From: a virus
Strand: one strand, 5' to 3'
DNA: 24,069 bases
IMG/VR virus record: IMGVR_UViG_3300030098_002187
Location: 1-24,069 of that record
Shown piece after piece: positions 344-1,520 of this stretch. The translations under genes and the position numbers were made by a program. Under the pieces are notes generated by a model. The model saw nothing but the letters and a program-made list of their open reading frames with translations. It had not been told where the DNA came from and searched no databases. Each line of letters begins with the position of its first letter. Positions within the stretch are counted from its first letter, which is position 1.

Positions 344-643
344 ATGGCAGTTGTAAATCAAGCTGTTTCAGATATGTGTTTAGTGCCACATAAACAAATA
401 CCACGTTCTATTACAGTTTGTGCGTTTGAGGATTTGTTTTTAGGACACCTGGATAATTATTTGTTAGCTAGTAATATACAGCCACACTACTACATTAAAC
501 ATTTGGTCAAACATATGTTTTCAAACAAGTTGCCGGTGAATAAATATGATTACACTTTGCAAAGAAAAAAGAACTTTAGAGTTAATTATAAATATGTAGT
601 TAATAAATTAAAAAAAGCAAACGTGAGGGTTATTGTTGAATGA
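344..643 (+). CDS. Hypothetical small basic protein
   Basis: The frame is open from 212, but the ATG at 344 is preferred. It has GAGG at 334-337 with a 6-base spacer, lies just after the stop of the membrane-protein gene (330), and removes a methionine-rich N-terminus that would overlap that gene by more than 100 bases. From 344 the product is 99 residues (MAVVNQAVSDMCLVPHKQIP...), moderately basic, with a lysine-rich C-terminal third. ATGs at 305, 311 and 332 are alternatives. No domain is recognised; the HYYIKHLVKHMF stretch and basic tail might suit nucleic-acid binding, but this is a guess. Its stop TGA (641-643) forms an ATGA overlap with the ATG at 640 of the overprinted ORF and also overlaps the methyltransferase start. 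Confidence 0.6.
   Translation: MAVVNQAVSDMCLVPHKQIPRSITVCAFEDLFLGHLDNYLLASNIQPHYYIKHLVKHMFSNKLPVNKYDYTLQRKKNFRVNYKYVVNKLKKANVRVIVE
625..629 (+). promoter_or_regulatory. Shine-Dalgarno GAGGG shared by two overlapping starts
   Basis: GAGGG at 625-629 is the only clear ribosome-binding sequence before the methyltransferase locus. It is 3 bases from TTG 633, 6 bases from TTG 636 and 10 bases from ATG 640. The first two codons are in the methyltransferase frame and the last opens the overprinted +1 frame ORF. One site could therefore serve both frames, with the spacing best for TTG 636 and the stronger start codon at 640. Confidence 0.6.
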
Positions 644-1520
644 GTTGGCATTATTCTCAGGCATTGGTGGAGGAATTTTGGGGGGAAAACTGCTTGGATG
701 GAGAACAGTCTGTGCAGTTGAACAAGACCCCTACTGCATCGCTGCACTTGCCCAAAGACAAAATGAAGGCTTTCTCTCGCCTTTTCCAATCTGGGATGAC
801 GTTTGTGCCTTTGATGGAAAAAGATGGAGAGGAATTGTTGACGTTGTATCTGGGGGATTCCCATGCCAAGATATCTCAGCAGCGGGAAAAGGAACAGGAA
901 TTAAAGGTTCAAGATCAGGACTCTGGTCAGAAATGGCAAGGATTATTGGCGAAGTACGACCCAGATTTGCATTTATTGAAAACAGTCCAATGCTCGTTAT
1001 TCGAGGACTCGACACAGTACTCTGTGACCTTGCCAAAATGGGGTTTGATGCAAAATGGGGATGTATTTCAGCAACCGAAGTCGGAGCAAATCACAAAAGG
1101 GATAGAATCTGGATTGTTGCAAGAAACAAAATGGCCGACACCGACAGCATCAACTGGGGGAGCATCAAAAAATCCAGAAAATCCAAGAGGAAAACATGGG
1201 GGGAATCCACTAGCAACAGCCGTTCAAATGTGGCCGACACCGGATGCCAATATGGGAGCAAGGGGAACTCAGGAGAATTGGACAAAGATAAGACCATCAG
1301 GCCAACCAGCACAATACACACTCAATCAGGCAGTCAGGGATTCGTTGGATGTAGCAGTACAACACACGGACAACCAACAAAAAACTGGTGGTCAGCTGAA
1401 CCCAACATTTGTCGAGTATCTTATGGGATGGCCTTTAGGGTGGACAGACTTAAAGCCATTGGAAATGGACAAGTTCCAGAAGTGGTTAGAACTGCATGGG
1501 AGATATTAAGATGGGATTAG
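636..1520 (+). CDS. dcm: DNA (cytosine-5) methyltransferase
   Basis: It transfers a methyl group from S-adenosylmethionine to C5 of cytosine in a specific DNA sequence, probably shielding phage DNA from restriction. The family motifs are in order (numbering from TTG 636): AdoMet motif I ALFSGIGGG at 5-13, acidic E29 in motif II, catalytic Pro-Cys GGFPCQDIS at about 73-81 (Cys77), motif VI as E-N-S at 115-117 instead of the usual E-N-V, motif VIII HKRDR at 153-157, a variable target-recognition region from about 165 to 260, and motifs IX/X ending in RLKAIGNGQVPEVV. The 294-residue length is normal for compact phage enzymes. TTG 636 is preferred to TTG 633 because of Shine-Dalgarno spacing; there is no ATG at the N-terminus. 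The locus looks GC-richer than its surroundings. The target sequence cannot be read from the protein. Confidence 0.92.
   Translation: MNELALFSGIGGGILGGKLLGWRTVCAVEQDPYCIAALAQRQNEGFLSPFPIWDDVCAFDGKRWRGIVDVVSGGFPCQDISAAGKGTGIKGSRSGLWSEMARIIGEVRPRFAFIENSPMLVIRGLDTVLCDLAKMGFDAKWGCISATEVGANHKRDRIWIVARNKMADTDSINWGSIKKSRKSKRKTWGESTSNSRSNVADTGCQYGSKGNSGELDKDKTIRPTSTIHTQSGSQGFVGCSSTTHGQPTKNWWSAEPNICRVSYGMAFRVDRLKAIGNGQVPEVVRTAWEILRWD
640..1509 (+). CDS. Overprinted ORF in +1 frame of the methyltransferase ('WPTPTA' protein)
   Basis: A complete 289-codon ORF lies inside the methyltransferase gene in another frame. It begins with ATG in an ATGA overlap with the preceding gene's stop and lies 10 bases from GAGGG. 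The translation is not random-looking: it begins MSWHYSQALVEEFWGENCLD, has two WPTP motifs (WPTPTA at 165-170, WPTPDA at 198-203), and ends in GGQLNP...VEYLMGWPLGWTDLKP. From memory this signature is a recurrent phage/prophage protein type deposited as hypothetical or as a methylase. Each WPTP is the same DNA as an ADT motif in the methyltransferase (MADTDS, VADTG), so the pairing itself appears to be conserved. No catalytic motif is recognised. Either this is a true overprinted gene or an ORF kept open by its partner's composition; translation is unproven. Confidence 0.55.
   Translation: MSWHYSQALVEEFWGENCLDGEQSVQLNKTPTASLHLPKDKMKAFSRLFQSGMTFVPLMEKDGEELLTLYLGDSHAKISQQREKEQELKVQDQDSGQKWQGLLAKYDPDLHLLKTVQCSLFEDSTQYSVTLPKWGLMQNGDVFQQPKSEQITKGIESGLLQETKWPTPTASTGGASKNPENPRGKHGGNPLATAVQMWPTPDANMGARGTQENWTKIRPSGQPAQYTLNQAVRDSLDVAVQHTDNQQKTGGQLNPTFVEYLMGWPLGWTDLKPLEMDKFQKWLELHGRY

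Follow-up and report, generated by a model that had tools for sequence, protein, structure and literature searches.

Organization of the overlapping genes

The window analysed here is an IMG/VR virus record of 24,069 bases, in which two genes occupy nearly the same DNA in different reading frames. A C5-cytosine DNA methyltransferase is encoded at 633-1520, and an ATG-started open reading frame (ORF) of 289 codons, in the +1 frame relative to the methyltransferase ORF, is present at 640-1509. The original prediction had described this frame as open over 289 codons, from an ATG overlapping the preceding stop codon, and this was confirmed. Within 640-1509 the +1 frame contains no stop codon and the third frame contains 18, and the ATG overlaps the TGA which ends the upstream ORF 212-643. 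The following features were assigned, with the evidence given in brackets:

625..629, plus strand: Shine-Dalgarno-like GAGGG (spaced 6 nt from TTG 636 and 10 nt from ATG 640)
633..1520, plus strand: C5-cytosine DNA methyltransferase, proposed catalytic subunit, 295 aa (PF00145, 3.6e-30; phrog_363, 4.1e-68)
640..1509, plus strand: overlapping +1-frame gene, proposed target-recognition/motif-IX subunit (phrog_1008, 3.1e-27; phase; purifying selection)
640..1131, plus strand: N-terminal part of the +1 protein, over methyltransferase motifs I-VIII (selection; profile scores compared with recodings)
1132..1395, plus strand: variable WPTP-repeat region of the +1 protein, proposed target-recognition region (omegas; alignment with single-frame methyltransferases after motif VIII)
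1396..1452, plus strand: LNPTFVEYLMGWPLGWTDL, candidate motif-IX equivalent in the +1 frame (hhalign to single-frame methyltransferases; motif census)
1461..1487, plus strand: motif X (GNGQVPEVV) in frame 0 (motif coordinates)

The methyltransferase (frame 0) starts with TTG at 633, or with TTG at 636 as judged from the alignment of relatives. It contains motifs I (654-674), IV (852-878, PC), VI (978-989, ENx), VIII (1089-1121) and X (1461-1487), and the DNA at 1132..1395, when read in frame 0, is an unconstrained linker. The signatures that had been noticed in the second frame were located in the +1 ORF, namely MSWHYSQALVEEF, two WPTP motifs (1132-1143 and 1231-1242) and LNPTFVEYLMGWPLGWTDL (1396-1452). 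Catalytic motifs were identified in none of the +1 proteins, and a comparison of the +1 protein to Pfam and NCBIfam revealed no family at a meaningful score.

Following the methyltransferase, a gene for a replication-initiation-like protein was identified at 1496-2539. Among the structural genes in the range 1496-21588, PHROG matches to terminase, head-tail adaptor, major head, tail and internal virion proteins were found, which suggests that the phage is short-tailed.

Distribution of the overlap

Related loci were fetched either by the methyltransferase alone, which gave a set of 44 loci blind to the +1 frame, or by the +1 protein (19 loci), and the set was widened by scans of viral contigs and bacterial genomes with the +1 alignment and a distant +1 relative. 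A +1 relative is present in all 44 methyltransferase-selected loci, where the frames are swapped only in cases in which an indel shifts both of them. With profiles for both proteins, the +1 protein was found over the methyltransferase in the +1 phase in 310 of the 310 fetched loci; 12 of these show an additional phase, resulting from a frame-swapping indel. Of the records in the phage collection, 75 match the +1 protein and 237 contain its C-terminal signature. Among the matches listed, the +1 protein overlies genes annotated as methyltransferase or hypothetical, with the exception of unannotated records. Stand-alone +1 homologues were absent from the best 80 matches of each scan (viral, genome, phage and plasmid collections), and among the fetched loci the N-terminal part of the +1 protein has no relative outside methyltransferase overlaps.

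The PHROG 1008 profile matches 103 of the 103 scanned +1 proteins, with an E-value of 3.1e-27 for the window, and by this profile match PHROG 1008 is the +1 family. It is listed apart from the methyltransferase PHROGs. The proposal that a separately deposited family is a widespread dual-coding partner of phage methyltransferases therefore holds. In GenBank, both frames are annotated as DNA methyltransferase in Paenibacillus phage Bloom (56/57), in Escherichia phage K1G (ORF31/ORF30) and in phage Lily (gp62/gp63), the latter with the note 'g62 internal gene'. The annotated +1 ORF of K1G begins within the methyltransferase gene. Searches of openly licensed papers revealed no report of such an overlap in phages.

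Start region

In the relatives, the two starts are paired in the sequence NTGAATG, 4 nt apart, and the first start codon is ATG, GTG or TTG in 148 of 172 loci. In these 172 relatives, the Shine-Dalgarno sequence most often precedes the methyltransferase start by 3-5 nt and the +1 ATG by 7-9 nt, so that one Shine-Dalgarno sequence can serve both starts.

Stop codons and profile scores compared with synonymous recodings

When the window gene was recoded synonymously, 5.5-13.5 stop codons appeared in the +1 frame, and with each of the three codon-usage schemes, 0 of 300 recodings left the frame open. For 141 non-redundant full-length loci, no +1 stop was observed, versus 5.1-9.0 expected per locus under synonymous recoding, with a probability of 0.001-0.008 per locus for an open +1 frame; these loci were selected partly via the +1 match, and the 44 blind loci, all of them with a +1 relative, provide the cleaner count. 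The third frame behaves as predicted, with 17.1 stops observed versus 16.6 expected in the 141 loci. Canonical methyltransferases have 13-26 stops in the corresponding +1 frame. Stops in that frame of homologous methyltransferase genes had been named in the original prediction as a sign of a chance ORF, and the relatives thus turned out to be free of them.

The +1 sequences were also scored with profiles from which the locus in question was held out. For the N-terminal part, the real sequence outscored all 20 recodings in 112 of 114 loci, and for the C-terminal part it did so in 113 of 114. For the N-terminal profile, the mean score was 231 bits for real sequences and 128 bits for recoded ones. 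The 289-codon +1 ORF is neither a product of chance nor an annotation shadow.

Selection in each frame

For the selection analysis, every change in 53 independent pairs was classed by its effect in both frames. Over motifs I-VIII, frame 0 is under tight constraint (omega 0.06-0.08). In the same region, the omega of the +1 frame at methyltransferase-synonymous sites is 0.24 (0.20-0.30), compared to 0.94 (0.81-1.14) in flanking genes; the control with single-frame methyltransferases gave 0.90 with a wide interval (0.48-8.4). After motif VIII, omega is 0.08-0.10 in the +1 frame versus a neutral 0.99-1.24 in frame 0, and the changes fall mostly on third positions of +1 codons. At the end with motifs IX and X, constraint was identified in both frames (omega 0.07-0.32). 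Methyltransferase-synonymous changes that create a +1 stop were not seen, whereas controls tolerate such changes at 0.45-0.78 of the rate for other synonymous changes. NN/NS ratios over motifs I-VIII were discarded, because similar values came out of the single-frame methyltransferase controls.

The +1 frame is under purifying selection over its whole length, and from after motif VIII until motif X it is the only selected frame. Purifying selection is accordingly not restricted to the methyltransferase frame; such a restriction is what the original prediction had associated with a chance or composition-driven ORF.

Nature of the +1 protein

The C-terminal signature of the +1 protein consists of WPTP repeats and LNPxFVEWLMGWPxGW. 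By hhalign, residues 163-289 of the +1 protein (P2) align with the tails after motif VIII of single-frame mycobacteriophage methyltransferases (E 3.8e-14, 89 columns). Common to both are LPTP/WPTP repeats and LNPxFxEWMMGWPxGW, located between motifs VIII and X. At least the C-terminal half of the +1 protein did not arise de novo, since it is homologous to methyltransferase sequence. No significant profile alignment was obtained between the +1 C-terminus and canonical host methyltransferases, their motif IX included, so that the link to motif IX runs via the single-frame phage enzymes and via position.

When the structure of a single-frame enzyme was predicted, the model could be superposed on M.HhaI along its entire length (model 1-391 on M.HhaI 12-325; Z 22.6, rmsd 3.8, 239 residues). 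In this model, the EWMMGWP helix is predicted to lie just before the motif X helices, at the position of motif IX; for the repeat region, confidence is low. In a pattern census, an IX-like element in the +1 frame together with motif X in frame 0 was found in 249 loci, and no locus of that census has IX and X within one frame. The C-terminal half of the +1 protein is best read as a putative target-recognition region followed by an equivalent of motif IX.

The +1 family profile gave no match to solved structures (best E 0.33). An AlphaFold model of the +1 protein alone, built with 103 relatives, was poor (mean pLDDT 56, pTM 0.24), which fits a protein that would depend on an obligate partner but also a sequence that is not a protein. 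This low-confidence model was set aside as a query for fold searches.

Other layouts and G/C tracts

In Mycobacteriophage Firecracker (locus 514-1459 of L311), gp6 contains motifs I-VIII and gp5 contains the recognition region, IX and X, in a +1 overlap; each of the two is annotated as DNA methyltransferase. In two further loci, L047 (3001-4108) and L131 (2949-4419), the +1 ORF extends into motif X and the frame-0 ORF stops before it. A distant branch from enterobacterial and Burkholderia phages (L310, L313, L314 and L315) has 'LNPAHSRWLMGLPxEWDDC' in the +1 frame over 'RDGKWRPVEPGTFPLANG' in frame 0. Judged from these sequences, the split, intermediate (Firecracker) and single-frame layouts seem to have been interconverted by loss, gain or shift of frame, in one direction or the other.

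The full-length overlaps, 147 kb in total, contain 16 runs of 10-15 G or C, compared to 2 in 854 kb of flanking DNA. Their positions are mostly codon ~82 and codons 164-167:

Codon ~82: L025, L035-L037, L039, L051, L054, L057, L059, L195, L204, L205
Codon ~165: L014-L017, L188, L192

In some of the tract-bearing loci both frames are intact, and in others the frames are swapped at the tract. This suggests that the tract-bearing overlaps form a phase-variable contingency locus; alternatively, assembly errors may be responsible. The overlap in the window has no G/C tract of such length.

A proposed two-subunit methyltransferase and its alternatives

Taken together, the overlap most likely encodes a two-subunit C5-cytosine methyltransferase, with the catalytic subunit in frame 0 and the recognition/motif-IX subunit in the +1 frame. 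Both chains would be launched from the neighbouring starts in NTGAATG after a single Shine-Dalgarno sequence. The frame-0 chain would contribute the AdoMet-binding and catalytic motifs I-VIII and also motif X, bridged by a linker without fixed sequence, which over the recognition region would need only to stay open for motif X to be reached. The +1 chain would supply the WPTP-repeat target-recognition region and the motif-IX helix, both of which are missing from the frame-0 protein, and would dock on the frame-0 chain, completing an enzyme for the methylation of phage DNA and perhaps of host DNA as well. We infer from the sequences that the +1 ORF is translated, that the subunits assemble, that specificity is carried by the +1 chain and that the enzyme has methylation activity. 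Held far more tentatively is the broader proposal that this two-subunit, near-fully overlapping enzyme exists in hundreds of phage lineages and that, in a subset, the G/C tracts make it a contingency locus, where one slip would alter both subunits and switch between two-subunit, fused and broken forms.

A ribosomal frameshift near motif VIII would instead produce one fused chain of motifs I-VIII, recognition region and IX, with the +1 ATG unused. Such a chain would account for the selection past motif VIII being confined to the +1 frame, and in five loci (L016, L017, L053, L054, L059) indels do join the methyltransferase N-terminus to the +1 C-terminus in one ORF. However, the +1 frame is stop-free and conserved across motifs I-VIII as well and begins at an ATG of constant position with a well-placed Shine-Dalgarno sequence, and the fused chain would lack motif X, which is nevertheless conserved in frame 0; we consider a frameshift unlikely. 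The start of its own, the selection over the whole length and an N-terminal half without known relative would also be expected if the +1 ORF coded for a separate protein outside the enzyme, such as an inhibitor, an anti-restriction protein or a regulator. A separate protein is nonetheless hardly to be expected only over methyltransferases, as found in 310 of 310 loci, nor with a C-terminal half homologous to precisely the recognition/IX region that frame 0 is missing, and this explanation appears quite improbable.

It is true that the codons of a conserved methyltransferase force some similarity on the +1 frame, as seen from the 128 bits that recoded N-terminal sequences still reach on average, and a composition-driven or annotation shadow would have this origin. 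Real sequences average 231 bits, though, the 5-9 stops expected per locus are missing, the selection ratios are far from the flanking-gene control, and canonical methyltransferases are interrupted by 13-26 stops in that frame, which makes a shadow extremely improbable. The original prediction had left open whether the second frame is a real protein (inhibitor, co-factor or immunity protein) or a shadow; the co-factor, as a recognition/motif-IX subunit, is favoured, while the inhibitor, the immunity protein and the shadow are disfavoured.

Two selected genes rarely overlap almost completely on the same strand. The present case, which can be quantified in hundreds of loci, provides a clean system to study how one sequence serves two frames. 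The two-subunit reading would account for a family that is labelled a second 'DNA methyltransferase' or left without annotation. It implies that many phage methyltransferases annotated as single-chain enzymes are without their recognition half, so that cloning of a codon-recoded gene would destroy activity. Recognition and catalysis on separate natural chains would also be useful for the engineering of split methyltransferases.

Comparison with known systems

PHROG 1008 (329 positions) carries the label 'DNA methyltransferase', which is silent on its nature as an overlapping partner. The single-frame enzymes gp69 of mycobacteriophage Moonbeam and gp6 of prophiFSIL01-1 share with the window the WPTP/LPTP repeats and LNPxFxEWMMGWPxxW between motifs VIII and X, but have all of their motifs on a single chain, in a single frame.

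When C5-methyltransferases are split between motif VIII and the recognition domain, naturally or artificially, the parts complement well (PMC5944983). M.AquI consists of two polypeptides split after motif VIII, with the small one containing motifs IX-X (PMC3404938). The window is alike in its two proposed polypeptides and a split after motif VIII, but while the beta subunit of M.AquI holds both IX and X, the window keeps X (GNGQVP) in frame 0. A split like that of M.AquI is found in Firecracker gp6/gp5.

M.EcoHK31I has the target YGGCCR, and its small gene was reportedly described by Lee, Kam and Shaw in 1995 as lying within the large gene in a different frame. The enzyme has been called 'naturally split' (PMC3439449), with motifs I-VIII and X on the large polypeptide, motif IX on the small one and the target-recognition domain assigned to the large subunit (PMC3404938). 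The two-frame arrangement is thus on record for a single bacterial enzyme, whereas the loci analysed here come from hundreds of phages. Compared by description, the phage locus is similar in that frame 0 has motifs I-VIII and X without IX and the +1 frame has a putative IX equivalent. In contrast to M.EcoHK31I, whose recognition domain is in the large subunit (PMC3404938), the recognition-like region of the phage version is placed by selection in the small (+1) subunit. The phage overlap differs further in its extent, which is almost the entire gene between start and stop, and in forming a family in hundreds of loci of phages and prophages.
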